A DNA stretch of 64,000 nucleotides. It comes from Ensifer adhaerens (GTDB lineage Bacteria > Pseudomonadota > Alphaproteobacteria > Rhizobiales > Rhizobiaceae). Positions 8,982 to 32,144 of this stretch are shown in pieces. How positions within the stretch are numbered: the first letter of the stretch is position 1; every line of letters begins with the position of its first letter. The notes below the pieces were generated by a model, which worked only from the letters and a program-made list of their open reading frames with translations, did no database searches and had not been told where the DNA came from. A program made the position numbers and the translations under genes. The DNA is taken from the NCBI RefSeq assembly GCF_013283195.1, contig NZ_JABEKT010000002.1, positions 620,001-684,000 of the forward strand, written 5' to 3'.

Positions 8982-9755
8982 TCAGAGAATGGTGTAGCCG
9001 CCGTCGATCAGGAGATCGGCGCCGTTGATCATGTCGGCTCCGGCCGACGTCAGGAACACGGCAGCGGCCGCGATCTCTTCCGGATAGGCGAACCGGCCGG
9101 CCGGGATGCGCTTCTTGGCGGCCTCGCCCTTTTCGCCACTCCAGGCTTTCTTGCCGAGCTCGGTCAGAACGATGGTTGGCGAGATGGTGTTGACGGTGAT
9201 GCCGTGTTTGCCCCATTCGGCCGCAAAGGTCTTCGACATGCCGATGACGCCAAATTTCGAGGCGCAATAGGCGACATGGTCCTCGATCGCGACCGTGCCG
9301 GCCTGCGAGGCGAGGTTGACGATCTTGCCGCCCCTGCCGGCAGCGATCATCGCCCGGCCGACGGCCTGGGTGACGAGGAAGCTGCCCTTCAGATTGATGG
9401 CGATGGTCTTGTCCCAATAGTCGAGCGACAGCTCTTCGGCAGGCGCGAGGAACACGACGCCGGCGCTGTTGACGGCGATGTCGATGCCGCCGAAAGCCGC
9501 GACGACGCCCGAGACTGCCGCATTGACCGAGGCCGCGTCCGAAACGTCGCAGACGAACGGTTTTGCATCCCCGCCGAGAGCCTCGGCCTTGGCGCGGGCG
9601 ACATCCTCGTTGATGTCGAGCACGGCCACTTTCGCGCCCTTGGCGGCAAAAGCGCTGGCGACAGCCGCGCCGATGCCGGAGGCGCCGCCGGTGACGAGGG
9701 CAACCTTGCCGGTCAGCGGGAAGTTGAGGTCGATCTGGGGTGTGGTCTCGGTCAT
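8982..9755 (-). CDS. Short-chain dehydrogenase, GolD/DthD-like polyol dehydrogenase
   Basis: A 257-residue classical SDR. The cofactor loop is TGGASGIG, the NAG-equivalent is NSAG, and the catalytic motif is Ser...YCASK. The start IDLNFPLTGKVALVTGG and overall pattern resemble the GolD (glycerol) and DthD (D-threitol) dehydrogenases, which in characterised systems stand beside DhaK/DhaL genes. It is encoded 29 bases upstream of DhaK in the same operon, so oxidation of an imported polyol to the kinase substrate is a reasonable inference. The ATG at 9755 has AGGG about nine bases upstream; a longer frame to 9794 has no comparable site. The substrate is not proven. Confidence 0.82.
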   Translation of the reverse strand: MTETTPQIDLNFPLTGKVALVTGGASGIGAAVASAFAAKGAKVAVLDINEDVARAKAEALGGDAKPFVCDVSDAASVNAAVSGVVAAFGGIDIAVNSAGVVFLAPAEELSLDYWDKTIAINLKGSFLVTQAVGRAMIAAGRGGKIVNLASQAGTVAIEDHVAYCASKFGVIGMSKTFAAEWGKHGITVNTISPTIVLTELGKKAWSGEKGEAAKKRIPAGRFAYPEEIAAAAVFLTSAGADMINGADLLIDGGYTIL

Positions 9756-9781
9756 GTCGGTTTTCCCTCGGCGGTTGGAAA

Positions 9782-9804
9782 GCGGGGCGGGCAAGCCGCC
9801 CCGC
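9782..9804. repeat. GC hairpin just after the CUT2 binding-protein gene
   Basis: GCGGGGCGG pairs with CCGCCCCGC around GCAAG. On the minus strand it lies 12 bases past the binding-protein stop and before the SDR. This position is typical of structures that stabilise the upstream binding-protein message and lower downstream expression. Confidence 0.5.
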
Positions 9805-9815
9805 CTGTGATGGCG

Positions 9816-10802
9816 TTACTTGCGGGCTTCAAGCAGCTTGTCGACGTTCTCGGTCGTGACCGGGGTCCACGGAACGTTGTATTCCTTGTCCTTGCCGTCG
9901 TTGAACGGCATGTCAGGATACTGCGCCCAGATGTCGGATTGCGGCTTGTAGTCGCCCTTCTTGGCCTGGAAGATCGCGAGGTCGAGCGCGCCCTGCGCCT
10001 GGGCGCGGGCATCCTGCAGGATCGAGGTCATCGTGCCTTCCTTGACGGCCGTCAGAGCATCGGTCACGCCGTCGATGCCGGCAATGGCGAAGTCGTCGAC
10101 CTTGAGGCCGGCCGACTTGATCGCTTCGATCGCGCCGAGCGCCATCTCGTCGTTCTGGCCGATGACGCCGTTGATCTGGCCCGAATGAGCCGTCAGCCAG
10201 TTTTCCATCAGCGTCTGGGCTTCGGCACGCGACCAGTTGGCAGTCTGCTGCTCGAGAACCTTGACGTCAGGGCACTCGGCAAGCGCCTTCTTGTTGCCTT
10301 CCAGGCGCGAGATCTGCGCCGACTGGCCAATCGGACCCTCGATGATCACCACGTTGCCCTTGCAGCCGATCTTGTCGAGAACGGTCTTGGCTTCCATGTA
10401 GCCCGACACGGTGTCGTCGGAGCCGACATAGGCGGTCAGAAGCTCGGAGTTGACGCGGGTGTTGGAGCCGACGACCGGAATGCCGGCATCATGGGCGGCC
10501 TGAACGGCGGTTGCGCCAGCCTCGATGTCGATCGGCACGAAGATGATCGCGTTGAACTTCTGCGTGATCATCGTGTTGAACTGTTCCTGCTGGACCAGTG
10601 CGTCGTAGCGGCCGTCGAACACGGTCAGTTCGACTTCACCGCTCTTGACGGCGGGGTGCTCTTCAAGGGCCGCCGACCAGATTTGCATGAATTCGGCATT
10701 GAGACCGTAGGGTGCGGCACCGATCTTGAGCTTTTCCTGCGCGACAGCTGATGACGCGAAGAGGGCCGTGGCGGAAGCCAGGGCGATCACGAGTTTCTTC
10801 AT
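9816..10802 (-). CDS. Sugar/polyol ABC transporter periplasmic binding protein (CUT2, RbsB-like)
   Basis: A 328-residue periplasmic binding protein of the ribose/galactose type. MKKLVIALASATALFASSAVAQ is a clear Sec signal peptide with cleavage after AVAQ or AVA. The mature part begins EKLKIGAAPYG and shows the type I fold blocks: FDGRYDALVQQEQFNTMI, NAIIFVPIDIEAG, AGIPVVGSNTRVN, IIEGPIGQSAQISRLEG and GQNDEMALGAIEAIK. It delivers ligand to the permease (10887) and ATPase (11951). Unusually it comes third, after both, and is bounded on each side by a GC-rich hairpin. The ligand is probably a short polyol, inferred from the coupled dehydrogenase and kinases. Confidence 0.88.
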   Translation of the reverse strand: MKKLVIALASATALFASSAVAQEKLKIGAAPYGLNAEFMQIWSAALEEHPAVKSGEVELTVFDGRYDALVQQEQFNTMITQKFNAIIFVPIDIEAGATAVQAAHDAGIPVVGSNTRVNSELLTAYVGSDDTVSGYMEAKTVLDKIGCKGNVVIIEGPIGQSAQISRLEGNKKALAECPDVKVLEQQTANWSRAEAQTLMENWLTAHSGQINGVIGQNDEMALGAIEAIKSAGLKVDDFAIAGIDGVTDALTAVKEGTMTSILQDARAQAQGALDLAIFQAKKGDYKPQSDIWAQYPDMPFNDGKDKEYNVPWTPVTTENVDKLLEARK

Positions 10803-14800: not shown

Positions 14801-17586
14801 TGGCGGATCCCGACAGGGCCGGCCTGTCGCCGGCAGAGCCCGTGGTACGCCTCAACGCCGTCACCCTTTCCTACGGCAAGACCCGGGCGCTTGACGACGT
14901 GACGCTCGACATCCCCTCCGGCTGCATGGCCGGCCTGATCGGGCCGGACGGGGTCGGAAAGTCGAGCCTGCTCTCGCTTGTCGCCGGCGCCCGCGCCGTC
15001 CAGGGCGGTCGCGTCGAGGTGCTCGGCGGAGACATCGCCGATGCCGGCCACCGGCGGCGGACCTGCCCGCGCATCGCCTATATGCCGCAGGGCCTCGGCA
15101 AGAACCTTTACCCGACGCTTTCCGTCTTCGAGAACGTCGATTTCTTCGGCCGCCTGTTCGGCCACGATCGCGAGGAGCGCGAGCGGCGCATCGCCGGCCT
15201 GCTCCAAAGCACCGGCCTTGCGCCTTTCGCCGACCGTCCCGCGGGCAAGCTTTCCGGCGGCATGAAGCAGAAGCTGGGACTGTGCTGTGCGCTCATTCAT
15301 GACCCTGACCTCCTCATTCTCGACGAGCCGACCACGGGCGTCGACCCGCTGTCGCGCCGGCAGTTCTGGGAGCTGATCGATGAGATCCGCGCCGAGCGGC
15401 CTGGCATGAGCGTCGTCGTTGCCACCGCCTATATGGAAGAGGCGGCCCGCTTCGACTGGCTGGTGGCGATGGATGCCGGCCGGGTGCTGGCAACGGGCAC
15501 GCCTGACGAGTTGCTGCAAAATACCGGCGTCGACACGCTCGATGCCGCCTTCATCGCGTTGCTTCCGGAAGATCTCAGGCGCGAGCACCACGACGTCGTC
15601 ATTCCGCCGCGTCCGGAAGGGGTGGGCGACGACATCGCCATCGAGGCCAACAACCTCACCATGCGCTTCGGCGATTTCGTCGCCGTCGACAATGTCAGCT
15701 TCCGCATCGGCCGCGGCGAGATCTTCGGCTTCCTTGGCTCCAATGGCTGCGGCAAGACGACGACGATGAAAATGCTGACGGGCCTGCTCGCCGCCAGCGA
15801 AGGCACGGCCAAGCTCTTCGGGCGCGAAGTCGACCCGCGCGACATGGAAGTGCGTCACCGTGTCGGCTACATGTCGCAGGCCTTCTCGCTTTATACCGAG
15901 CTGACGGTCCTGCAGAACCTCGAGCTGCATGCCAAGCTCTTCGGCATGGCAGCTGACACCATTCCAAAGCGGATCGAGGAGCTTGCGGATCGCTTTGATC
16001 TCGCCGGCGTGATGGAGGCGCTGCCGGACGCCTTGCCGCTCGGGGTGCGCCAACGGCTGTCGCTGGCCGTCGCCCTGATCCATTCGCCCGACATCCTCAT
16101 CCTCGACGAGCCGACATCCGGCGTCGACCCCGTCGCGCGCGACAGTTTCTGGCAGATCCTCGTTGACCTCTCGCGCAACGAGCAGGTGACGATCTTCATC
16201 TCCACCCACTTCATGAACGAGGCGATGCGCTGCGATCGCATGTCGCTGATGCATGCGGGCAAGGTGCTGGTCAGCGACACGCCGGAGGGCATCATGAAGA
16301 GCCGCTCCGCGTCGACGCTGGAGGAAGCCTTCATCGCCTATCTCGAAGAGGCGATCGCCGGCGCGAAGCCGGCGGCGCCTTCCGTGGTCAGGGCGCACGA
16401 CCCGTCGAAGCCGGCAATCGCGCAGGAGGTCGAACGAAAGGCGTCGGCGACGTCGGCGTTTTTCGACGTCGGACGCATGTTCAGCTACACCCGTCGCGAG
16501 GCGCTGGAACTGGTGCGCGATCCCATCCGGGCGACGCTCGCGACCATCGGCACGGTCATCCTGATGTTCGTCATCGGCTATGGCATCAACATGGATGTCG
16601 AAGACCTGACCTTCGCGGTGCTCGACCATGACCAGACCACCACCAGCCGCGAATACATTCTCGAAATCGCAGGCTCGCGCTACTTCATCGAGAAGGACCC
16701 GATCACCGATTATGCCGACCTCGACCGGCGCATGCGCAATGGCGAACTGAGCCTTGCGATCGAGATACCGCCGGGTTTTGCCAGACGGGCGGCCCGTGGC
16801 GACGCGGTCGAAATTGCCGCCTGGATAGATGGGGCCATGGCGAGCCGCGCCGAAACGGTCAAAGGCTACGTGCAGGGCCTGCACGCCCACTGGCTGACCG
16901 GAAAGATCCGCGAACGCTACGGCGATGCGGCAACCGCCGGCACCTTCAAGATCGAGACGCGCTTCCGCTACAATCCCGACGTCAAGAGCATCGTCGCCAT
17001 GGTGCCCGCCGTCATTCCGCTGTTGCTGATGCTGATCCCGGCCATGCTGTCGGCGCTCAGCGTCGTGCGCGAGAAGGAGCTGGGCTCGATCGTCAACCTC
17101 TACGTCTCGCCGGTGACGCGGCTCGAATTCCTGGTCGGCAAGCAACTCCCCTATATCGCCCTGGCGATGCTCAATTTCGCGCTTTTGACCGCCTTTGCGA
17201 TCTTCGTCTTCCGGGTGCCGTTCACCGGCAGCCTGCTGGCCTGGACGGTCGCCGGATTGATCTACGTCTCGGCGGCAACGGCGATGGGGCTCGTCATCTC
17301 CACCTTCATGTCCAGCCAGATTGCCGCGATTTTCGGTACGGCGATCCTGACGCTCATTCCGGCCATCCAGTATTCCGGCATGATCGATCCGGTCTCGTCG
17401 CTGGAGGGCGCGGGCGCCTTCATCGGCCAGATCTACCCGACGACGCATTTCATGACCATCGCTCGCGGCACCTTCTCCAAGGCGCTCGGCTTCGGCGATC
17501 TCGCGGGCGCTTTCGTGCCGATGCTGATCGCGGTGCCGGTGCTGCTGGCGATCGGCACCCTGTCCCTCAAGAAGCAGGCGAGGTGA
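14800..17586 (+). CDS. RbbA-like ABC exporter: two ATPase domains fused to an ABC-2 permease
   Basis: A 928-residue fusion. ABC domain 1 (about 10-255) has [20 protein letters not shown] and [14 protein letters not shown] domain 2 (about 280-520) has [11 protein letters not shown], a weak signature [11 protein letters not shown] and [11 protein letters not shown]. From about 555 it is an ABC-2 permease with one N-terminal helix ([19 protein letters not shown]), a periplasmic loop and five or six C-terminal helices. E. coli RbbA was described as a ribosome-associated ATPase, but this fusion and the coupled adaptor and permease genes fit an export pump better. The cargo is unknown. A longer frame from 14764 lies inside the HlyD gene; 14800 is the coupled start. 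Confidence 0.88.
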
Positions 17587-17588
17587 CC

Positions 17589-18701
17589 ATGCGCCTGTCC
17601 CACATCTACCATCTCGGCATCAAGGAACTCTGGGGTCTCTGGCGTGATCCGATCCTGTTGATCCTGATCGTCTATTCCTTCACGCTGTCGGTCTATACCG
17701 GCTCGACGGCGATGCCGGAGACGCTCAACCGCGCCGCCGTCGCGATCGTCGATGAGGACCGCTCGCCGGTGTCGACGCGGATATCGACGGCTTTCTATCC
17801 GCCCTATTTCGTGCCGCCGCAGATGATCACGCCGGCGGAAATGGACCGGCGGATGGATCAGGGGCTGGATACCTTTGCGCTCGACATTCCGCCGAATTTC
17901 CAGACGGATCTGCTCGCCGGGCGCACGCCGACGATCCAGCTGAATGTCGATGCGACCCGGATGAGCCAGGCCTTCTCCGGCAACGGCTACATCCAGCAGA
18001 TCGTCACCGGCGAGGTCGCGGGCTTCCTCGAGCGCCACCGCAGCGAGCAGAAACTGCCGGTCGATCTAGTCCTGCGCGCGCGGTACAATGCCGAATTGAA
18101 CAAGGGCTGGTTCGGCGCAGTGATGAACGTCATCACCAACATCACCATCCTGTCGATCGTCCTGACAGGAGCTGCCCTCATCCGCGAACGCGAACATGGC
18201 ACGGTCGAGCATCTGCTCGTCATGCCCGTCACCCCGTTCGAAATCATGGTCAGCAAGGTCTGGTCGATGGGGCTGGTGGTGCTGCTGGCTTCTGCGGTGT
18301 CGCTGATCTTCGTGGTCAAGGGGGTGCTTGCCGTCCCGGTGCAGGGTTCGTTTGCGCTGTTCCTGCTCGCCACCGCCCTGCAACTCTTTGCCACCACGTC
18401 GATGGGAATCCTGCTGGCCACGATTGCCGGCTCGATGCCGCAGTTCGGCCTGCTGCTGATGCTCGTTCTTCTGCCGCTCCAGGCGCTCTCCGGTGGCATG
18501 ACACCGCGCGAAAGCATGCCGGAGATCATCCAGAATATCATGCTGGCGGCGCCGAACACCCATTTCGTCATTCTGGCGCAGGCGGTCCTGTTTCGCGATG
18601 CCGGTCTGGATGTCGTCTGGCCGCAGCTCCTTGCCTTGCTGGTGATCGGCGCCATTCTCTTTGCCTTCGCCATGCGGCGCTTCCGGGCGTTCCTGAAGTA
18701 G
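17589..18701 (+). CDS. ABC-2 type permease (YhhJ-like)
   Basis: A 370-residue membrane subunit with one N-terminal helix (LWRDPILLILIVYSFTLSVYTG), a large periplasmic region and a C-terminal block of about five helices containing LIREREHGTVEHLLVMPVTPFEIMVSKVWSMG, the ABC-2 signature region. It is probably a heterodimer partner of the permease half of the RbbA-like protein. The ATG at 17589 has GAGG five bases upstream; a GTG at 17583 overlaps the preceding stop (GTGA) and is the alternative start. It is the last gene of the export operon. Confidence 0.87.
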   Translation: MRLSHIYHLGIKELWGLWRDPILLILIVYSFTLSVYTGSTAMPETLNRAAVAIVDEDRSPVSTRISTAFYPPYFVPPQMITPAEMDRRMDQGLDTFALDIPPNFQTDLLAGRTPTIQLNVDATRMSQAFSGNGYIQQIVTGEVAGFLERHRSEQKLPVDLVLRARYNAELNKGWFGAVMNVITNITILSIVLTGAALIREREHGTVEHLLVMPVTPFEIMVSKVWSMGLVVLLASAVSLIFVVKGVLAVPVQGSFALFLLATALQLFATTSMGILLATIAGSMPQFGLLLMLVLLPLQALSGGMTPRESMPEIIQNIMLAAPNTHFVILAQAVLFRDAGLDVVWPQLLALLVIGAILFAFAMRRFRAFLK

Positions 18702-18761
18702 CCTTTGCGCCATGGGCCTTGCGAGCTCTGCGCGCGCAGACTTTACCAGTGGAAAATGCGA

Positions 18762-18783
18762 CCGGCGGTTGACCGGCCGCCGG
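18762..18783. terminator. Hairpin after the export operon
   Basis: CCGGCGG pairs with CCGCCGG around an 8-base loop, about 60 bases past the permease stop and about 25 bases before the cobalamin aptamer. No T-run follows. It may separate the export operon from the B12 transcription unit. Confidence 0.4.
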
Positions 18784-18805
18784 CATATGATAGGTCATTT
18801 CTTGC

Positions 18806-18990
18806 GAAACAGGTTCCGTCTGACGACGGATGAAAAGGGAACACGGTGAGGATTGCCCGCAAGGGACCGAAACCGCGACTGCCCCCGCAACTGTAACCGC
18901 CGAGCGGAACCCCATGAAGCCACTGCGCGAACTCTCGCGTGGGAAGGCGGGAGGAAGCGACGACGCGGAAGTCAGGAGACCTGCCTGTTT
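18806..18990 (+). promoter_or_regulatory. Cobalamin riboswitch
   Basis: The conserved blocks of the adenosylcobalamin aptamer occur in order: acaggttcc followed by aaagggaacacggtga, then the B12 box core accgcgactgcccccgcaac with tgtaaccgc, agccactg, tgggaaggcggg, and the closing gaagtcaggagacctgcctgt. The 3' closing strand pairs with the 5' acaggt. It lies about 190 bases upstream of the btuB start, so it most likely lowers expression of the uptake operon when cobalamin is plentiful. Confidence 0.95.
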
Positions 18991-19178
18991 CGGTCACCCA
19001 TGCCTGGACACGAGGGGTGTCGAGGCGCGGCCGTCCGTAGCGGTGACATTGGAGCAATGTTGCCGCGTGCCGCAGACGGCGCCGGGGTGGTCGCTTGTCG
19101 TCTTGCCTCTGCCACCCTTTGCCCGCGGTCGATCGCGCGTGGGCCGGATCGTGCCCATCGCGCCGGAGTGGGGACGAT

Positions 19179-21092
19179 ATGACGAAGCAATTGACTGGCG
19201 CAGCGGCGCTGGTTCTGACACTCGTGGGCGGGGCTCAGGCACAGGATACGGCCGCAAACGAACAACCGACCAAGCTTGAGAAGATCCTGGTTTCCGATGG
19301 CCTGACGCCGACCGAACAGCGCAAATCCGGGCGCGCCTTTACCGTGATTACCGGAGATCAGATCGAGAAAAACCAGATCCGCTACGTCGCCGACGCCCTG
19401 CGTCTCGTTCCCGGTTTCTCGGTTTCGCGCACCGGTGCCTCCGGCGGCCTGACGCAGGTGCGCGTGCGCGGTGCGGAAGGCAATCAGCTACTGGTGGTGA
19501 TCGATGGCGTCGAGGCGAACGACGTGTCCCAGGGCGAGTTCGACTTCGGCGGCCTGGTTGCCGACGACATCGAGCGCATCGAAATCCTGCGCGGACCGCA
19601 AAGCACCTTCTGGGGCGCCAATGCCATGGCCGGTGTCATCAACATCATCACCAAGAAGGGAAGCCGCGATGGTGCCGTGTCAAACGCCCGCACCGAAGTC
19701 GGCAGCGACGGTACCTGGCTTGGCGGCCTGTCGACCCGCGGCGGCGGCGAGGGCTATGATTACGCGCTGTCCGGCGTGTTCCAGAGAACCGGCGGTTTCA
19801 ATGTCTCCGATACCGGCTCCGAGGATGATGGCGACCGCAACGGCACCGTCAACGGCAAGTTCACCTTCGATCTCTCGCCGGATCTGCAGCTCGATGCGAC
19901 CTTGCGCGCCGTCAACCGCAAGACCGACCTCGACGCGCAGGATTACATGACGGCGCTGACCTACGACACGCTGGACTATACGCGATCGCGCGAGCTCTCG
20001 AGCTCGCTCGGCCTGACCCATTCGGCGCTCGACGGCGATCTCACCCAGAAGGCGCGCGTCTCCGGCCTTGACGTTCACCGCGACAATGTCAGCGGCTTCG
20101 GGCGATCCTGGAACGACGGCAACCGCTACAACGGCAGCTATCAGGCGAGCTACGGCTTCGATGGTGGAGACGGTATCCGCCACCAGATCACCGGAGGCTA
20201 CGAGTGGCAGCGCGAGACGTTCACGCCGTCGCATCTGCAGCAGACCTTCAGCCGCAATGCGCATTCGCTCGTCGGCGAGTATCGCGGCGAGTTCGCCGAC
20301 CAGTTCTTCGTCAATGCAGGCCTCAGGCGCGATTTCAACGATCGCTTCGAGGACGCGACCACATGGAGCCTCAGCGCCTCCTGGGAGATACCGGGCAGCG
20401 ATACCCGCCTGCACGCATCCGTCGGCACCGGCGTGACCAATCCGACCTTCTACGAGCAGTTCGGCTATATCCCGGGAACCTTCATCGGCAATCCCTACCT
20501 GAAACCGGAGGAAAGCCTCGGCTGGGACATCGGTGTCGAGCAGCGCTTCTTCGAAGACGGTCTGACCGTCGATGTCACCTACTTTGACCAGAACCTTAAA
20601 AACGAGATCGCCACCGTCTACGACGCCAGCTTCCGTTCGACGCCGGTCAATCGCTCCGGCGAAAGCTTGCGCCACGGGGTCGAGGTCTCCGCGACGGTCG
20701 ACTTCTTCAACGGACTGACGACGACGGCGACCTACACCTACACCGCTTCGACCGAGCAGACGCTTGCCGGCGGGCCGCGGCTGCAGGAGGTCCGCCGTCC
20801 GCGCCATGCCGCGTCGCTCGATGCCGCGTATGTCTTCTATGACGATCGTATCAGGGTCTTCGGCGAAGTCATCCTCAATGGCCGGATGCAGGATGTCGCC
20901 TATCGGCCGGGCCCGGAGCGAGTGCCGCTCGGCGCCTATACGCTGGTCAATGTTGGCGGCAGCTTCAAGGTCAACGACACGCTCGAGATCTTCGGCCGCG
21001 TCGACAACCTTTTCGATGAGGACTATGAGGAGATCTACGGCTACAACACGCAAGGCGTGACCGCCTTTGCCGGCCTGAAGGCCTCGTTCTGA
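19179..21092 (+). CDS. btuB: TonB-dependent cobalamin receptor BtuB
   Basis: A 637-residue outer-membrane receptor. The signal peptide MTKQLTGAAALVLTLVGGAQAQ is followed by an EKILVSDG-type TonB-box region, a plug domain (about 50-150, with RVRGAEGNQLLVVIDGVEAND and IERIEILRGPQSTFWG), and a 22-strand barrel ending in the sorting signal GLKASF with C-terminal Phe. The riboswitch upstream and the btuFCD genes downstream fix cobalamin as the substrate. The ATG at 19179 lies behind GGGGA; a longer frame from 19095 lacks a signal peptide. The TGA overlaps the next ATG. Confidence 0.93.
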   Translation: MTKQLTGAAALVLTLVGGAQAQDTAANEQPTKLEKILVSDGLTPTEQRKSGRAFTVITGDQIEKNQIRYVADALRLVPGFSVSRTGASGGLTQVRVRGAEGNQLLVVIDGVEANDVSQGEFDFGGLVADDIERIEILRGPQSTFWGANAMAGVINIITKKGSRDGAVSNARTEVGSDGTWLGGLSTRGGGEGYDYALSGVFQRTGGFNVSDTGSEDDGDRNGTVNGKFTFDLSPDLQLDATLRAVNRKTDLDAQDYMTALTYDTLDYTRSRELSSSLGLTHSALDGDLTQKARVSGLDVHRDNVSGFGRSWNDGNRYNGSYQASYGFDGGDGIRHQITGGYEWQRETFTPSHLQQTFSRNAHSLVGEYRGEFADQFFVNAGLRRDFNDRFEDATTWSLSASWEIPGSDTRLHASVGTGVTNPTFYEQFGYIPGTFIGNPYLKPEESLGWDIGVEQRFFEDGLTVDVTYFDQNLKNEIATVYDASFRSTPVNRSGESLRHGVEVSATVDFFNGLTTTATYTYTASTEQTLAGGPRLQEVRRPRHAASLDAAYVFYDDRIRVFGEVILNGRMQDVAYRPGPERVPLGAYTLVNVGGSFKVNDTLEIFGRVDNLFDEDYEEIYGYNTQGVTAFAGLKASF

Positions 21093-22959: not shown

Positions 22960-23771
22960 GCCGGCTTGCCGTTTCCAATCTCTCCGCCTCGCTTGGCGGC
23001 AATACGGTGCTGAAGGGCATCGCTCTTAGCGTCGGGCCGGGCGAATTCGTTGGTCTTATCGGGCCAAACGGTGCCGGCAAATCGACGCTTCTGCGCGCCT
23101 GCCTGGGGCTGATCCCGTCGAGCGGCGAAATTCAGCTTGCTGGGCGGGATCTGCGGCGGATGACTGCAGCCGACCTTGCCCGTCACGTCGCCTATGTCGC
23201 GCAGGACAGGGATATCGCCTGGCCGATCACGGTGGAAGCTCTGGTCGACCTCGGGAGACAGCCGCACCGGGGCGCCTTTGCACGATCGGCGCTCGCCGAC
23301 CAGGAAGCCGTTGAAGCAGCGCTCCAGCGCATGGATATCGACAAGTTGCGATCGCGCCGGGCAACCGATCTTTCCGGCGGCGAAAAAGCGCGCGCGCTGA
23401 TTGCAAGAGCCTTGGCACAGCAGGCCGACCTGCTTCTGGCCGACGAGCCGGTCGCGGGCCTCGATCCGGCGCACCAGATAGCGCTGATGCAGGTGTTCCG
23501 CGATCTGACGCGGCAGGGCACTTCGGTCGTAGCCTCGATGCACGATCTCGGTCTGGCGGCGCGCTGGTGCGATCGGCTCGTGCTTCTCGAAGGCGGCCGC
23601 ATCGTCGCCGACGGCCCGCCTGCCGCGGTGCTGACCGCAGACCTCTTGCGGCGCGTCTACGGTATCGAAGCCTATGTCACCGAGGCGGCGGGGGGGCTGA
23701 TCGTGCAGCCGACGCGCCTTGCGCAAGCCGGCATCGAACAAGAGGTTGCAGGGGATAATATCCATGGCTGA
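22956..23771 (+). CDS. btuD: Cobalamin ABC transporter ATPase (BtuD/FecE family)
   Basis: A 271-residue ATPase with Walker A GPNGAGKST, signature LSGGEKARALIARAL and Walker B LLLADEPVAGLD, followed by the switch histidine in SMHDLGLA. It powers cobalamin import with the permease. The start overlaps the permease stop by four bases (ATGA), and the end overlaps the next gene by eight bases. The second half of the signature is KARAL instead of the usual QRVxL, within normal variation. Confidence 0.92.
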   Translation: MSRLAVSNLSASLGGNTVLKGIALSVGPGEFVGLIGPNGAGKSTLLRACLGLIPSSGEIQLAGRDLRRMTAADLARHVAYVAQDRDIAWPITVEALVDLGRQPHRGAFARSALADQEAVEAALQRMDIDKLRSRRATDLSGGEKARALIARALAQQADLLLADEPVAGLDPAHQIALMQVFRDLTRQGTSVVASMHDLGLAARWCDRLVLLEGGRIVADGPPAAVLTADLLRRVYGIEAYVTEAAGGLIVQPTRLAQAGIEQEVAGDNIHG

Positions 23772-24798
23772 ACTCGCCGACATGCTCAGCACGCATCTGA
23801 AAGACCCGGAGGCCGGGTGGAGCATGGGGACCTTCGGCGCCATTGCCGAGTTCCACCAGGATCCCGGTGAAGCGCTCGTTGTCGACGCGCCGGAGATGTT
23901 TTGCAGGGCCACGGAGAGAGGTGGCGTGCGGATCGATCCGGCCTGCGTCGCCGATCTCGTGCCGGTCGCCTACGAAGCGCTGAGCCCGAGAGCGCACCGC
24001 TGGAGCCACGCGGTCGCTCTGTGCCTGCCGGAAGGCGATGCGCGGCGCGAGGCGCGTGCGCTCCTGACCGAACTCGGCCCTGACGAAGGGGCCATTCGCC
24101 CCGGCGATCGCCACGGCATCCTCTTTGATATGGGGCTTTCGCTGCCGCAATGCGACTTTTGCATTCGCACCGAAGACATCGAGCTGCTTGAGGTCATGAG
24201 GCGGTGTGTCGGACGCTCGCTGTTTGAAGCCGACAATCCGGCAATGCAGGCTATCTTGAAGGCCCATCCCCATCGCGTTGCCGTCACAGCCATCGGCCGT
24301 GTCGAGGTCTATCAGAAGATCGGCGGGCCGGACACCGGCGGCATATCTCCGCCCGGTCCGCACACGCACGTGTTGCCGCAACTCTTGCGCAGCGGCCGCA
24401 CGCATTCCGCCAATACTCCGATCCCGCCGGGCCTGCTGCCGCTCGGCAGCCTGCATCCTGGCAATCCGGTCGTCGGGCCGATGGGCGAGGAGAGGGCTTT
24501 CGATCCGCACCTGCATCAGCGGTTCCAGGGGCTTCTGGAGTGTTACGGCAATGCGTCGACGGTCGCCGTAAAGGCCGATCTCATTGCGGCGCTGGGCCGC
24601 AATGACCATCCGCAGAACTTTGCCTGCCCGAACGACCGGTCGGCCCGCGCGGCCATGCGCGTTGGCCTCAGGCAGCAGGAGCACCTCGCCCGTCAGAGCG
24701 GTGACGAAGAATATCTTGCGAGGGTTCTCGGCTGGCGCGCGGTGTACGATCGCGCCGTCGACGCTGCCGACACCGACGACGAAGCGCCTGGCCACTAA
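23764..24798 (+). CDS. Conserved protein of unknown function coupled to the B12 uptake operon
   Basis: A 344-residue soluble protein with no signal peptide or membrane segment. It begins MAELADMLSTHLKDPEAGWSMG and includes a Cys pair LPQCDFCIRT near residue 120 and a His/Pro-rich block GPHTHVLPQLLRSGRTH followed by PPGLLPLGSLHPGNP near residues 200-230. These could bind a metal or cofactor but match no motif I can name. It overlaps btuD by eight bases, the tightest coupling in the operon, so it is expressed with the B12 transporter and under the same riboswitch. A role in cobalamin handling is an inference from context. I do not recognise the family. Confidence 0.8.
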   Translation: MAELADMLSTHLKDPEAGWSMGTFGAIAEFHQDPGEALVVDAPEMFCRATERGGVRIDPACVADLVPVAYEALSPRAHRWSHAVALCLPEGDARREARALLTELGPDEGAIRPGDRHGILFDMGLSLPQCDFCIRTEDIELLEVMRRCVGRSLFEADNPAMQAILKAHPHRVAVTAIGRVEVYQKIGGPDTGGISPPGPHTHVLPQLLRSGRTHSANTPIPPGLLPLGSLHPGNPVVGPMGEERAFDPHLHQRFQGLLECYGNASTVAVKADLIAALGRNDHPQNFACPNDRSARAAMRVGLRQQEHLARQSGDEEYLARVLGWRAVYDRAVDAADTDDEAPGH

Positions 24799-25871: not shown

Positions 25872-26477
25872 GATTGTCCCAATCCAAAATCAATGAGGAC
25901 CCGCACTACAGGAGGCGAGGGGCTCGTTCAAGACCGTCCAGCGAAACGGTGCTGGATCGCGGCGCTCTGGAGGTCGCCTTTTGCCGGTCAGGCGTTGTCC
26001 TACCGGGAGCAACGTCGCGGCCGGAAATGCGACGGCCGATGGGTGGTTGCCATTGGCGCCATGCATCCGGCCGAGAAGGCTACTACTTCTGGATTAGTAG
26101 TCCCCCTCTCACGTATCTGCGAACTTTCGCATATAATCCGCTCGGCGCTAAGAGGGGTCTCTCAGCTTCATTGAAAATCAGGGTGCGGGTCGGAAGGCCT
26201 GACGCGGTTCTTTGTGTTCGAATGCAACTTAAAGTTAAGATCGCATCTGTTGCCCTCGAGCCGTGGAGACGGTGCGAGCATATTTTGCAGGCATGGAACG
26301 ACCGGAGGGAAGGCGACCGCGATTGATCGCGGCGGCAAATCTGATGGAGAACACTGTGCAGACAGACGACATCGGTAACGGCACATCGCAGCTTGTCAGA
26401 CCAACGGGCGCATCTGCCGATGATGCGGGGCGCCGCGTCACCCTCGCGTGTGGGGATGGTTCGATGCGGGGGCTGGC
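25872..26477. other. 606-base region without a confident gene
   Basis: Several short open frames overlap here, but none has a recognisable domain or strong ribosome site. Base composition is less GC-rich than the neighbours around 26060-26260. Visible elements are a palindrome next to TATAAT (26118-26137), a pair ACTACT...AGTAGT near 26080-26100, and one small frame coupled to the downstream gene (26344-26481). It is probably the long leader and promoter of the fusion gene at 26478. Confidence 0.45.
26118..26137 (+). promoter_or_regulatory. Palindrome overlapping a TATAAT hexamer
   Basis: TGCGAA-CT-TTCGCA is a perfect dyad at 26118-26131, and its last base adjoins the perfect -10 hexamer TATAAT at 26132-26137. 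No good -35 is present at 17 bases, so an activator or alternative promoter would be needed. It lies 340 bases upstream of the fusion gene. Confidence 0.35.
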
Positions 26478-26481
26478 ATGA
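26344..26481 (+). CDS. Possible small protein coupled to the fusion gene
   Basis: A 45-residue frame (MENTVQTDDIGNGTSQLVRP...) ends in a TGA that overlaps the ATG of the next gene as ATGA. Coupling of this kind is common among real genes in this window, but the frame has no recognisable domain and only a weak GGCGG upstream. It could be a leader peptide or chance. Confidence 0.22.
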   Translation: MENTVQTDDIGNGTSQLVRPTGASADDAGRRVTLACGDGSMRGLA

Positions 26482-29400
26482 GCGACCTCGACACGGAATC
26501 GAAGACGGCCTGGATTTCCCAGGGCTTCGAGCGGCTGGTCGATCGCGTCCGCAAGGCTCCTGCCGCTGTGCATTTCGATGTCCTGATCATTGGCAGCGGT
26601 TATGGCGGCGCGATTGCCGCTTCGACTTTCGCCGGGCGCACGCATGAGGGCAGGCCGATTTCGGTCGGCGTGCTGGAGCGCGGGCGCGAATACCTGCCGG
26701 GCTCCTTTCCGACAGGCCTTGGCGAATTGCCGCGCCATATTCGTGGTGACAACAACAAGGAGGGCCTGATCGATATCAGGATCGGTGCTGAGGTCGTTGC
26801 GGTCGTCGCCAACGGGATCGGCGGAGGATCGCTGATCAATGCCGGTGTCATGGAAACGCCGCTGCCAAGCGTTTTCCACAAGCGGTGGCCCACGGCCCTC
26901 AAGGATCTCTCGACCTGGAAATCCTATTTCGATCGTGCACGCGATCTGCTCGGTAGCACCGTCATGGGCGCTCCAAACACTATTGCCGACCATGTCGATG
27001 GCGTGCCGCAAAAGTTTAGGTCGGTGCGCGCAATCGCGCCGGACGGCAATTTCAGACCGGCTTCGATCACGGTCGCGATGAGTGACACCACCAGTTCCGG
27101 CAATGTGCGCCTGAACAAGTGCCTTCGCTGTGGTGATTGCGCGACCGGCTGTAATAGTGGCGCAAAGAACTCACTCGACGTCAATCTGCTGGTGAGCGCG
27201 AACCAATACGGTGCCGAAATCTTCAGCGGCGCAACGGTCCTCAGCCTGGCCAGGGATGGAGATGTCGGCTGGCTCGTCAGGGGCGTGCACACCAACGCGA
27301 AGCTCCGCAAGCGCGACACCGACCCGGTGGCGATCAGGGCCCGCAAGGTCGTGCTCGCCGCCGGTGCGCTCGGATCGAGCGAAATCCTCATGCGCTCTCG
27401 CGGCGCAGGCTTGCAACTGGCGGACAGGAACCTCGGCACAGGATGCTCGACCAATGGCGACATGCTGGTTGCCGACTATGCGACCGCCGCCGATGTCAAC
27501 ACCGTCGCCGACGAAACGATCAAGCCATCGACCCGGGCCATCGGGCCGATGATCACCGGGGTAATCGACCTTCGTGCCTCAAAGGGTGTGATGATCGAGG
27601 AGATGTCGGTGCCGGCGGCTCTGCGCATTGCCTTCGCCGAGGTTTTCGCCACCCTCAATATGCTGCACGGCCTCGCCAGGCATGATGGTACGCGGCACCG
27701 TCCGGGGTTTCCGGATGACGATATCTACGCAGCGCCGGCCGCACGCATCGGCCGCTCGGCACTTTACGCCGTCATGGCCGACGATGGAGCTGAGGGCCGG
27801 ATCGAACTCGATGGCGACCCAAATGCGGTCGATCGGGACGGCATTGCGCGGATCCGCTGGGACAAGCTGCAAACTCTGCCCGTTTTCGACAGGCAAGTCG
27901 AGGCACTCGCGGCGCTGACGAAAGGCACCGGTGGCCGGCTTATTCCCAATCCGGTCTGGAAGCTGTTGCCGGCCGACTTGACCTGGTTGCTGAAAGATCA
28001 GCGCGGGCCGCTGGCGACTTTCCATCCGCTTGGCGGCTGCGCGATGGCCGATACGGGCGCGGACGGTGTGGTCGATCACCTTGGCCGCGTCTTCACAGCG
28101 GTGGATTCCGACGCGGTGCATGACGATCTCGTCGTGCTCGACGGGTCGATCGTTCCGACCGCACTTGCGACAAACCCAGCCCTGACGATTGCTGCGATTG
28201 CGCTGCGCGCCGCGGAAGCGCTGGCCGAGGAATGGAACTATGATGCAGCCGAAGTTCGGCCCATCGGTTCCCCGCTGGTTCGGCCGGTCTTTCGCAACAC
28301 CGACGTCGCCGCGCGGGCGCAGTCAAGCGAGGTCGAAATCACCGAAAGGCTTGTCGGCCCCATCAGCTTGACGCCGGTGGATGGGATCGAGGAAACCCGG
28401 ATCGTCGAGCTGACCATGCGCTTCACGCCCATCTCGCTTTTGCAGTTGACGCCGAGCAATGGCAGCCACCCGATCCTTCGTGTCGCAACCGAAGTGCCGG
28501 ATGGTGCCATCCGAAGCCAGATCCGGATTTTCCCTCGGGACGTCTGGGAAACGCTGGAGACGACCTGGCTGCCCCTGCATGTGAAGGAGCGAAGGCTCGA
28601 TGCCGCCGCCGAATTCAGCGCGCCGATCTCCGGCAGTCTGCGGCTCTTCGAGCGCCAGCAGAGCTCGATGCCTGGGCGCGTGTGGCGCGCGGGCAAGGCC
28701 TGGGTGCTGAACCGGGGGCTTCGGGACGGCTACCAGGCACTCGCCGATGGAGACGATGGCCCCGGCCTCTGGTCGCGGCTCAAATCGGCTTTTGCGATTG
28801 CCAGCCGCTCCGGCGAGATCAGGACGCTCGGCTATGATCTGACCATTGGGCCGCAGGACGTCGGCGGCAAGATCGCGCTCGCCGGCAACCGTATCGTCGG
28901 CGTCAAGACCTTCACCTATGAGCGGCGCTGCAATCCCTGGCGCCAGCTTATGGAGATGACGCTCGACACGTTTCCGGGCTTGAGCCCCGGCAGCGGCGAG
29001 CGCGTGCTGAAACTCGACGTCGGTTATCTCGCGCGGATCGGCGTGCCGTTGTTCCGGGTCGTCGATCAACGCGACGGCGTCAACACCATCGCCGAATTGC
29101 TGACAGTCTTCGGCTTCATCGCGCGGCTTCTGCTCGGTCTGCATCTCTGGAGCTTTCGTGCTCCCGACCAGGACAAGCGACCGCGACCGGCGACCGTCAA
29201 CCGCCTGCCACCGACGACGCTGAAGCTCCCGGGCGGCGCGTCGATTACCGCCGAGCTGCATCGCATCGCGCTTGCGCCGGAACGGCCGGATGGCGGAGGC
29301 AGCGATGTGGCCGGCGAGGTGCGGCTGACGCGCTACCGCCATCCCAACAGCAAGAAGCGCCCGCTCATTATGTTGCACGGCCATAGCGCCAGCGGCACCA

Positions 29401-32144
29401 CCTTTGCGCATCACGCGGTCAACCCCAATTTCGCCAGCCATTTCTGGTGCACGGGTCGTGACATTTGGATCGCCGATCTCAGAACCAGCGCGGGCCAACC
29501 GACGGCGACAGAGGCGTGGAGCTTCGACCAGATCGGCAATGTCGACGTACCGGCGGCACTGAAGGCCGTGGCGGCAACGTCGCCGGACGGGACGGTCGAC
29601 GTGATCGCCCATTGCATGGGAGCCGTCGTCTTCAGCATCGCCGTGCTGAACGGCCATGCGACCGGGCTCGTCCATCGCGCCGCCTTCACGCAGGTCGGGC
29701 CGCTCGTCGTTTTTGCGCCGGCCAACATCTTTCGCGCCTATCTCACGCGCTACCTCATCGATTTCCTGCCGGGCAGCTACAGTTTCAACCCGAAGGAACC
29801 GACGCTTGCGGACGATCTTCTCGATCGTCTTCTGTCGTCGCTGCCCTATCCGGTCGAGGAGTTGGACGTCGAGAACCCGCGATGGCCAACGAAGCGCACG
29901 CCCTGGACGCGCACTCGGCATCGCATGGACGCGCTCTACGGACGCCATTTCGATGTGCGCAACATGGAGCCCGAAGTGCTGCGCTACATCGACGAGCATT
30001 TCGGTCCGTCGAGCCTGTCGACGGTGTCGTCCCACCTGCATTTCGTGCGTTCCTCGACGATGACGGATTTTCAAGGGCGCAACGGTCTGGTCTCGCGCCA
30101 GAACCTGACAAAGCACTGGTCGTTCCCGACCTTCAGCGTGCATGGGGGAGAAAACGGACTGTCACATGTCTCGACCGTTGATCGCATGCGGCAGATTTTT
30201 GGCGCCGCCGGCCGGGTCTATATGCCTCCCTTCGTCATTCCGGGCGCGGGCCACCAGGACGCGCTGGTCGGAACGACGCGGCACGCGGCCTTGGCGCAGA
30301 TACAGCAGTTTTTCGACGCCGACATACCGGCGGGCGTCGTCAAGGCCGACAGTGAAAAAGTGGTCTATCCGCCCTGGATCGGTCCGATCATTACCGAAGA
30401 GCGCCCGAAGACCCCGGCGCTGGTCATCCGCCTCGGTTCGGCGCCCTTGCATCGGGCGACCGAAGCCGCATTGCTCCTGCGCATCCGGATGGTCGATGAT
30501 CGTATCTGTCGGCCGGATGATCCGACACAGCCCTGGGACACAGCCTATCTCCTGGAGCATCTCGTTGCCTATACCTCGAAGGCACTTGAGGACGATGGGT
30601 GGGATGCGTTCGAAGTTCCATTGCTCGCCCGCATGCCCGGCCATGGAATTGCCGATCGCAGCGATGCCCTTCTGGTTCTGCTGGCCTATGACGAGGATGC
30701 GGCGGTGGCCGCACCGGACCTCGATCGTGAAGAGCCGCCGTCGCCGCTTGAACGCGTCGTGCCCGGTCCTGCCGCCCTGGCGCCGGCCTATGGTTACTTC
30801 GTTGCCGATATCGGGCAAAGGCGGATGCGGCGGCTCGATCCGACGGGAGCGGCCGGCAATGCCGCTTGCGGGCAGGCTGTCGCGTTCGCCTACAGCCGTT
30901 TTGAGAAGATGGCCGCGGCCGTGGAGCGCGCGATGGCCTTTCCATCGCCGAGGGCAGGGCGCCAGGGCTTCATGCAGTCGGCGCATCCACCTGTTGCCGA
31001 GCAGGATTTCGATCTGAGGGACGGCATCGTCCCCTATGATCCACCGGCACTTCCGCCCCTGGAACCGGCGCCGAACGGAACCAGTTTCTCGCTCTCTTCC
31101 TGCCAGTATCCGGCTGGGTTTCTCGACGCGGCGGTCGCCTACCGCGGCTATGGGCGCATTGCTGAACGGCTGGAGGCCCGTGCTGGGATCAAGCCGCGCT
31201 TCGCGCTTTTCGTCGGTGGCCAGGTCTATGTCGATCCGACGGCGGGGCTCTATGACCCTACCCGACGGGATGATCGTTACCGCCTGCCCTACGAGGCCTG
31301 GCTGAGCCAGAGCAGCGTGCGCAACGTCTTGCGACAGATCCCGTCCTTCATGCTGCCCGACGACCAGGAGATCGACGACAGTTGGGAGCCGATCTCCGAT
31401 CCGGATGACGATGATAATGCCGGCAAGGCGATGCGCGGTGTCGAAGCCTACCGGAAGTACCAACGGGGCAAAGATGCCAAGCTCGATATGTTCGATTTCG
31501 ACGGTTTCCATTTCTTCATGCTCGACACGCGTACGCAGCGAGCCCACCGAAAGGTGGGTGATGGCCTGAAGGCGTCCGCGATGTTCGCGCCGTCGATGAT
31601 GGAAAGCTTGAAGCAATGGTTGTTGCTAGCTCCCGGGCCGAAGTTCGTCGTATCTCCTGCTATGTTGCTGCCGCGGCATCGGCGCGCCACCCAGCGCGAT
31701 CAAAGCCTTTCCTGGACGAACTTGTCCGCGTTGCATTCCGACGGATGGGACGGCTACCCCAACACGCTTGGCGAGGTGCTTGGCTATATCTCCGAGAACC
31801 GAATCGAGCATGTGGTGTTTCTCTCGGGAGGCGAACACCGTGCTGGTGTCGCGACGGTCGACCTCTTCGACGAGGATGGCTCCGTCACCCGTGTTCACTC
31901 GATCCATACGGCGGCGATGTTTGCGCCCTATCCGTTCGCCAACCGCATCGACGAGGAAATTGTCGAAAGCGAAACGATCGAAGTCCGGTCGGGCGCGAGG
32001 ATCTACCGGTGCGCCGTCAACGCAACGCTGCCGGCCCCTGGTGACGGGGCGACGTTCCTGCGCGTTCGCCGGGCCGAAACCGAAACCGGATGGGAACTCG
32101 ATTGCGAGTTCGGCGATGGCGCGGTGCAGACGCTGGCAATCTGA
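26478..32144 (+). CDS. Triple fusion: GMC oxidoreductase, alpha/beta hydrolase and PhoD-like domain
   Basis: A 1,888-residue protein with no signal peptide. Residues about 30-590 are a cholesterol-oxidase-like GMC domain: FAD loop IGSGYGGAIAAS, Cys cluster CLRCGDCATGC near 215, and HPLGGC with His516. A linking region follows, then an alpha/beta hydrolase at about 950-1285: LHGHSASG oxyanion strand, nucleophile elbow AHCMGA with Cys1046 in place of Ser, and GAGHQDAL with His1259. From about 1535 it resembles PhoD/metallophosphatases, but usual ligands are altered: VGGQVY (normally GDQIY) at 1581, DDQE (normally DDHE) at 1630, and SGGEH near the end. The third domain may therefore be non-catalytic. 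The start at ATG 26478 has GGGGG five bases upstream. Substrate unknown; steroid, terpenoid or lipid-like compounds fit the GMC branch. Confidence 0.85.
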   Translation: MSDLDTESKTAWISQGFERLVDRVRKAPAAVHFDVLIIGSGYGGAIAASTFAGRTHEGRPISVGVLERGREYLPGSFPTGLGELPRHIRGDNNKEGLIDIRIGAEVVAVVANGIGGGSLINAGVMETPLPSVFHKRWPTALKDLSTWKSYFDRARDLLGSTVMGAPNTIADHVDGVPQKFRSVRAIAPDGNFRPASITVAMSDTTSSGNVRLNKCLRCGDCATGCNSGAKNSLDVNLLVSANQYGAEIFSGATVLSLARDGDVGWLVRGVHTNAKLRKRDTDPVAIRARKVVLAAGALGSSEILMRSRGAGLQLADRNLGTGCSTNGDMLVADYATAADVNTVADETIKPSTRAIGPMITGVIDLRASKGVMIEEMSVPAALRIAFAEVFATLNMLHGLARHDGTRHRPGFPDDDIYAAPAARIGRSALYAVMADDGAEGRIELDGDPNAVDRDGIARIRWDKLQTLPVFDRQVEALAALTKGTGGRLIPNPVWKLLPADLTWLLKDQRGPLATFHPLGGCAMADTGADGVVDHLGRVFTAVDSDAVHDDLVVLDGSIVPTALATNPALTIAAIALRAAEALAEEWNYDAAEVRPIGSPLVRPVFRNTDVAARAQSSEVEITERLVGPISLTPVDGIEETRIVELTMRFTPISLLQLTPSNGSHPILRVATEVPDGAIRSQIRIFPRDVWETLETTWLPLHVKERRLDAAAEFSAPISGSLRLFERQQSSMPGRVWRAGKAWVLNRGLRDGYQALADGDDGPGLWSRLKSAFAIASRSGEIRTLGYDLTIGPQDVGGKIALAGNRIVGVKTFTYERRCNPWRQLMEMTLDTFPGLSPGSGERVLKLDVGYLARIGVPLFRVVDQRDGVNTIAELLTVFGFIARLLLGLHLWSFRAPDQDKRPRPATVNRLPPTTLKLPGGASITAELHRIALAPERPDGGGSDVAGEVRLTRYRHPNSKKRPLIMLHGHSASGTTFAHHAVNPNFASHFWCTGRDIWIADLRTSAGQPTATEAWSFDQIGNVDVPAALKAVAATSPDGTVDVIAHCMGAVVFSIAVLNGHATGLVHRAAFTQVGPLVVFAPANIFRAYLTRYLIDFLPGSYSFNPKEPTLADDLLDRLLSSLPYPVEELDVENPRWPTKRTPWTRTRHRMDALYGRHFDVRNMEPEVLRYIDEHFGPSSLSTVSSHLHFVRSSTMTDFQGRNGLVSRQNLTKHWSFPTFSVHGGENGLSHVSTVDRMRQIFGAAGRVYMPPFVIPGAGHQDALVGTTRHAALAQIQQFFDADIPAGVVKADSEKVVYPPWIGPIITEERPKTPALVIRLGSAPLHRATEAALLLRIRMVDDRICRPDDPTQPWDTAYLLEHLVAYTSKALEDDGWDAFEVPLLARMPGHGIADRSDALLVLLAYDEDAAVAAPDLDREEPPSPLERVVPGPAALAPAYGYFVADIGQRRMRRLDPTGAAGNAACGQAVAFAYSRFEKMAAAVERAMAFPSPRAGRQGFMQSAHPPVAEQDFDLRDGIVPYDPPALPPLEPAPNGTSFSLSSCQYPAGFLDAAVAYRGYGRIAERLEARAGIKPRFALFVGGQVYVDPTAGLYDPTRRDDRYRLPYEAWLSQSSVRNVLRQIPSFMLPDDQEIDDSWEPISDPDDDDNAGKAMRGVEAYRKYQRGKDAKLDMFDFDGFHFFMLDTRTQRAHRKVGDGLKASAMFAPSMMESLKQWLLLAPGPKFVVSPAMLLPRHRRATQRDQSLSWTNLSALHSDGWDGYPNTLGEVLGYISENRIEHVVFLSGGEHRAGVATVDLFDEDGSVTRVHSIHTAAMFAPYPFANRIDEEIVESETIEVRSGARIYRCAVNATLPAPGDGATFLRVRRAETETGWELDCEFGDGAVQTLAI

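Follow-up and report, generated by a model that had tools for sequence, protein, structure and literature searches.

A conserved four-module GMC-MID-hydrolase-PhoD fusion protein of Ensifer adhaerens with a degenerate PhoD metal site

The 64,000-nucleotide stretch of Ensifer adhaerens contig NZ_JABEKT010000002.1 analyzed here (positions 620,001 to 684,000; hereafter the window) encodes an 1888-residue protein (26478..32144, + strand) that joins a GMC oxidoreductase, a middle module (MID), an alpha/beta-hydrolase (ABH) and a PhoD-like module in one frame. The earlier observation is confirmed and covered only part of the picture: the protein represents a conserved family of four modules that is encoded next to a signalling protein at most loci seen. 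This domain order is old and conserved, rare but widely scattered among several classes of Pseudomonadota. In our preferred reading, to which we assign a probability of roughly 0.55, it is an intracellular enzyme that processes a conjugated lipid-like alcohol and has lost its phosphatase step in the window lineage. A conjugated bulky alcohol is proposed as substrate because the nearest relatives of the modules are cholesterol oxidase, cholesteryl ester hydrolase/acid lipase and PhoD phosphodiesterase. Annotation has missed this multi-module family, with its non-Pfam module, its Cys-His-Asn residues on an acid-lipase fold and its possible Fe-S GMC module; the database record of one copy gives only the name "alpha/beta fold hydrolase". 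The window gene also shows clearly how a single catalytic site of a fused enzyme can be lost with the remainder still open. The domain types are already known, and a small, open-access literature search aimed at the fusion found no description of the combination, of MID, of a Cys-His-Asn form of acid lipase or of the kinase pairing reported below, a scope that leaves novelty unproven.

The reading frame starts at an ATG (26478), with an alternative GTG start at 26448. Pfam models matched the protein at residues 105-307 (GMC_oxred_N, 46.4 bits, cut-off 23), 469-575 (GMC_oxred_C, 43.9 bits, cut-off 24.6) and 1553-1801 (PhoD, 51.8 bits, cut-off 27), while Abhydrolase_1 at 962-1057 scored 21.0 bits, under its cut-off of 25.8. 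The preliminary description of this gene was right that GMC, ABH and PhoD enzyme modules share one frame, with a weak Pfam match for ABH, and it overlooked MID. The motifs it listed are present as stated; it passed over the cysteine cluster CxxCxxCxxxC (residues 215-225) and a further lost ligand, N1635S. Its interpretation of the gene is supported in part. The protein is probably cytoplasmic because a hydropathy scan shows no membrane segment ahead of residue 558.

The GMC module (residues 1-590, 26478..28247, + strand) was delimited by Pfam, hidden Markov model alignment and fold. It has the features of the GMC superfamily: both Pfam models score above their gathering scores, the flavin adenine dinucleotide (FAD) motif GSGYGG lies at residues 39-44, and the catalytic His-His/Asn pair is present. 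Its closest solved match, by both profile (E-value: 1e-37) and Foldseek, is the GMC-type cholesterol oxidase of Streptomyces, whose His447 and Asn485 positions are retained as His516 and Asn566 in 18/18 aligned rows. The module differs from cholesterol oxidase in the following respects. First, it scores 139.1 against the equivalog model NF058674, which has a cut-off of 850. Second, it has four extra cysteines and is fused to three other modules. Third, VIA-align scores other GMC enzymes equally high against it.

The four cysteines (Cys215-x2-Cys218-x2-Cys221-x3-Cys225; 27120..27152, + strand) form a putative Fe-S site that is invariant in 17/17 rows of one alignment and 18/18 rows of a larger one. 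FAD glucose and fructose dehydrogenases with a 3Fe-4S centre are the second Foldseek group for this module, and the available text of PMC6719666 places the 3Fe-4S site of the FAD glucose dehydrogenase (FAD-GDH) BcGDH in a loop. The window cluster lies at the corresponding place in the chain and is, by position, putatively equivalent to that loop; the spacing is x2-x2-x3 in the window protein versus 212/218/222 in these dehydrogenases. Among the 10 neighbouring open reading frames (ORFs) scanned with Pfam, one of them without any family, there was no small-subunit family of FAD-GDH or fructose dehydrogenase and no cytochrome c family. Possible electron acceptors are encoded beside two shorter relatives of the fusion: the gene of G568 is followed directly by one for a RoxA-like cytochrome c (L074, 11208-13139), and downstream of that of G1048 there is a gene for a MauG-type di-haem peroxidase (L097, 5966-7021).

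The ABH module (residues 945-1285, 29310..30332, + strand) has a fold nearest to acid lipase/cholesteryl ester hydrolase, the fold of the acid lipase family. Fold matching places Cys1046, Asn1226 and His1259 at its triad positions, which read Cys-His-Asn in 31/31 aligned sequences. It thus differs from lysosomal acid lipase and gastric lipase, having Cys for Ser and Asn for Asp in place of their Ser-Asp-His triad. Cys1046, within AHCMG, had been reported from the outset as standing in for the serine nucleophile, and this holds throughout the alignment. Polyhydroxyalkanoate (PHA) synthase (PhaC), with which it was compared, is among the closest known systems but has a Cys-Asp-His triad, unlike the Asn found at the acid position in 31/31 sequences, and the window protein has no PHA synthase family match. 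A Rhizobium leguminosarum plasmid (L040, 2288-9451) carries phaC together with genes for a PhaE subunit, an iron alcohol dehydrogenase and a coenzyme A-transferase, all upstream of a gene related to the GMC and ABH portions of the fusion.

MID (residues 600-940, 28275..29297, + strand) occupies the approximately 340 residues between GMC and ABH, and a Pfam scan found no family for it at an E-value of 1. Six of its columns (E623, G627, G719, Y786, K810 and W821) are nearly invariant in a 21-row alignment. The match lists of both fold aligners, Foldseek and VIA-align, were filled by GMC folds, and no new fold is claimed for MID. A shorter GMC-MID-ABH form of about 1,100-1,300 aa (hereafter the two-module proteins) occurs in Azospirillum, R. 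leguminosarum, Leptospira, Bernardetia, Persicobacter and further genomes; at one such locus (L046, 2312-7601) a tandem GMC gene (577 aa) lies directly upstream.

Split forms also exist. In G153 (L044), four consecutive same-strand genes encode a PhoD-like protein (573 aa), a 235-aa protein, a GMC protein (524 aa) and an ABH protein (367 aa). The 235-aa product (9231-9938) shares 24-34% identity with the two-module proteins over their middle module. BLAST found no direct match between it and the MID of the fusions; its position and the six nearly invariant columns suggest that it is their counterpart. In G503 (L070), GMC-MID-ABH (1364 aa) and PhoD (558 aa) are encoded by two genes that lie about 30 bp from each other and are divergent from a cyclase gene. 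TRAP-transporter genes stand in the same gene run as the G153 split genes (L044, 13584-16863) and adjoin the fusion in one Ensifer group (L026, 21034-24149).

The split adjacent genes argue, as a Rosetta-stone case, for placing the four activities in one pathway. Their common substrate would be one bulky, lipid-like alcohol supplied in conjugated form. The ABH module, of acid-lipase type and with its Cys-His-Asn residues, would remove or transfer an acyl group via a thioester, and the PhoD module would take off a phosphate or a phosphodiester. The freed hydroxyl would then be oxidized with FAD by the GMC module, with electrons passing to an Fe-S centre and not directly to oxygen. The L044 operon holds TRAP-transporter and dehydratase genes, which point to a different substrate class there.

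The genome searches scored few candidates per genome in the large samples, and the counts are lower bounds. In the genus (Ensifer/Sinorhizobium), 9/16 genomes, that of the window included, carry the complete fusion as a single open frame; one copy is frameshifted (G014), two genomes hold remnants (G001 and G002) and four have no match at an E-value of 1e-20. The frameshift of the G014 copy, which lies on an E. canadensis plasmid, is near residue 294; in L027 (E. canadensis pT173e, 14809-20776) the frameshift lies in the GMC module and the adjoining cyclase gene is reduced to end pieces. Among Rhizobiaceae of other genera, 1/21 genomes (G030) has the fusion, and a ten-row alignment was built from this sequence and the nine from the genus, each genome being used once. 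In a class sample of 385 genomes, searched at the same threshold, the fusion of the window was the only one, and split genes came up in G153; a phylum sample of 398 genomes yielded, besides the window fusion, those of G503, which are also split. The domain order also recurs outside the Alphaproteobacteria, in 3/214 genomes of one order (G831, G840 and G943), 2/203 genomes of one class (G1134 and G1149) and 4/15 genomes of the family of G943, itself included (the new ones being G1191, G1193 and G1194). The families of G1149 (3 genomes) and G831 (2 genomes) yielded no additional fusion. Seven of these non-alphaproteobacterial loci are complete and one (G840) is cut by a contig end. In trees of both parts of the protein, the Rhizobiaceae fusions cluster with G503, and with the non-alphaproteobacterial sequences added, all fusions and G503 form one group apart from the two-module proteins (support 100/100, which applies to the whole group and not to the position of G503 within it).

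The PhoD-like core (residues 1520-1888, 31035..32141, + strand) has a degenerate metal site. It is preceded by a beta-rich part (residues 1293-1415, 30354..30722, + strand), whose strands appear at low-to-middling confidence in predicted model B and which may be the counterpart of the N-terminal region in PhoD-like proteins that stand alone. The window protein falls within Pfam PhoD and scores 14.2 against the PhoD equivalog NF058638 (cut-off 1000). Unlike Bacillus subtilis PhoD, it has no hydrophobic N-terminal segment and has lost three ligand positions, all on the + strand: D1581G (31218..31220; PhoD D207, equivalence by the GDxxY motif), N1635S (31380..31382; PhoD N272, a CaB ligand) and D1785G (31830..31832; PhoD D436). 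The degenerate motifs reported earlier, GGQVY (1580-1584), DDQE (1628-1631) and GGEH (1784-1787), were all read in the protein. According to the available text of PMC4223295, replacing C180, D265, N271, N272 or D436 of B. subtilis PhoD abolished activity and replacing D207 or D266 cut it drastically. By motif and profile alignment, C180, D265, N271, N272, D436, D207 and D266 correspond to window C1542, D1628, D1634, N1635, D1785, D1581 and D1629, with C1542 and D1581 set by motif. We added Tyr1584 and His1787, which we take to be part of the ligand set, making nine positions.

These nine positions are kept in 17/20 aligned sequences (Asp and Asn at 1634 being counted alike), which rules out ligand loss as a family trait. 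The only exceptions are the window and two sister loci, L002 and L003. D1581G and H1630Q are common to all three and rule out a local sequencing error; close homologues with intact ligands, which had been put forward as a sign of such an error, do exist, yet the changes are shared by three genomes. L003 has lost only D1581 among the ligand positions, whereas L002 has additionally lost Y1584 and H1787. Residue 1635 is Ser in the window and His in L002, and residue 1785 is Gly and Asn, respectively. The ligands were lost stepwise in the window species and its two sister species, and the differing replacements at the same positions fit the decay of a site that was already dead. Among columns invariant in the other seven fusions, this clade changed 5/8 PhoD ligand columns versus 17/163 others (Fisher p 0.001).

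Alternatively, the window gene could be a relic in decay that no longer serves any function. Omega values (pairwise Nei-Gojobori counts, not branch models) of the clade (window, L002 and L003) were compared with those of two control trios. Omega is raised in ABH (0.204 vs 0.044/0.080) and MID (0.247 vs 0.139/0.107), with bootstrap ratio intervals above 1 in both, as a relic would predict, and the deleted cyclase gene described below, the frameshifted E. canadensis copy and the remnants in G001 and G002 fit the same picture. However, 5.7 kb remain open in three species, GMC omega is unchanged (0.115 vs 0.100/0.116) and the listed GMC and ABH catalytic positions are all kept. Omega of the PhoD core (0.186) is near that of the controls (0.130/0.155), and therefore the PhoD scaffold is not drifting freely. 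When changes at invariant columns are simply tallied, a cruder measure, the clade exceeds the L004-6 trio in every module; against the more divergent L007-9 trio it is not higher, except marginally in ABH. We consider a relic unlikely.

In Rhizobiaceae, the divergent neighbour of the fusion encodes a cyclase that has two catalytic domains in tandem, followed by an AAA-type ATPase. Its nearest PDB match is human soluble adenylyl cyclase, ADCY10 (E-value: 8e-26), which it resembles in both catalytic domains and in the ATPase that follows. The catalytic Asp, Lys and Asn/Arg positions are presumably kept, and the adenine-site Thr is, as we assume, replaced by Met. The gene is present at seven loci (L021, L025, L026, L075, L076, L070 and L047, in the last of which it can be followed for 1,110 aa until the stretch ends). 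Its frame is broken in L022, most of it is missing from L027, and the window, L023 and L024 have lost it by deletion. Several of these genomes occur in two collections (L002=L024, L003=L023, L004=L022, L005=L021, L006=L025 and L027=L010). Beside the window gene, where the ADCY10 counterpart is thus missing, a scar at 25959..26081 (- strand) matches cyclase residues 15-55 (tblastn E-value: 4.7e-5, 41% identity), and the DNA match of the window with L025 breaks at this scar. As candidate replacements elsewhere in its own genome we found only distant relatives (30% and 24% identity), and this idea was rejected.

If the PhoD module were a phosphodiesterase for the cyclic nucleotide of this cyclase, it would become superfluous once the cyclase was deleted. 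PhoD ligand loss is indeed confined to the clade with a deleted cyclase, and the likeness of the cyclase to the human enzyme agrees with such a role. The link between cyclase and PhoD is suggestive: the fusion is damaged at 4/5 loci with a broken or missing cyclase versus 0/7 with a cyclase (p 0.010), but this count omits the remnant-only G001 and G002, is uncorrected for kinship and represents about two evolutionary events. The three PhoD losses belong to one clade and are not independent, two broken-cyclase loci (L022 and L027) retain the PhoD motifs, L044 has PhoD with GMC, MID and ABH yet no cyclase nearby, and the fetched stretches of the non-alphaproteobacterial loci contain none. We judge a phosphodiesterase loop improbable. 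By inference from the parallel cases, cyclase loss preceded PhoD loss. Under the preferred reading, the present window protein most likely keeps GMC activity, with ABH activity perhaps weakened and the PhoD scaffold retained without catalysis, because the divergent cyclase is gone and the PhoD ligands were lost stepwise.

At 8/8 non-alphaproteobacterial loci (one contig-truncated), the gene directly before the fusion, in the same orientation and either 2-21 bp away or overlapping it in frame ends, encodes a homologous hybrid histidine kinase of 582-626 aa. Identity is 36-48% among the first five kinases found, and the last three are about 67% identical to that of G943; the five scanned have, by hydropathy, 1-5 N-terminal membrane segments. 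Since the available text of PMC3376566 describes synthase and sensor-kinase gene pairs of this layout (CqsA/CqsS and LqsA/LqsS), the enzyme might make, mature or destroy a small lipid-derived signal sensed by the kinase, with the divergent cyclase of the seven Rhizobiaceae loci in the place of the kinase. However, the stretches searched around the Rhizobiaceae fusions contain no adjacent kinase, and kinase and cyclase may only regulate the enzyme. In 4/4 kinases tested, the C-terminal half is nearest to the NahK/ErcS model, with scores of 285-307 that fall short of its cut-off of 400. Matching kinases do lie close to the two-module genes of G747 (31% identity) and Leptospira (29%), but unrelated kinases elsewhere also match, more weakly. 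We regard such a role in signalling as about as doubtful as the relic. Slightly less probable again is a fuller scheme in which the megaenzyme deacylates, dephosphorylates and oxidizes one precursor to build or unmask a lipid-derived messenger, read by the kinase outside the Alphaproteobacteria or by the cyclase-like protein in Rhizobiaceae; the window would then hold a circuit being dismantled after the loss of its reader. With a kinase paired at all eight loci, the substrate or signal is open to direct testing.

Of the two-module loci examined, 7/15 have a metallophosphoesterase gene as a neighbour, and several families are represented; the 15 exclude G038 (L019), whose contig is short, and another R. 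leguminosarum record (H12). The metallophosphoesterase genes are directly adjacent and co-directional in L039, L072, L093, L094 and L096, and one gene away in L074 and L046; by the tests made, none was found at the other eight (L040, L041, L042, L043, L071, L073, L097 and L098). This count has no random-locus control and covers neighbours of which only some were Pfam-scanned, and the scan of 158 neighbouring ORFs used the enzymes already found as queries and is hence biased toward their kin. Most of these enzymes have no detectable BLAST similarity to one another. That of L096 is PhoD-like at 22.5 bits (under the cut-off of 27), that of L039 is named by its record and not by Pfam, and that of L046, a divergent gene at 1-2165 related to the Azospirillum metallophosphoesterase, was recognized by a 34% match to L039's. 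Pfam gave no family for the Azospirillum metallophosphoesterase, named by its record's own annotation, or for its G060 relative; a proposal that the former is a PhoD homologue was rejected as unsupported, the BLAST matches being at chance level. Upstream of the fusion in the window, positions 23719-24798 encode a DUF6925 protein of unknown function (420.7 bits).

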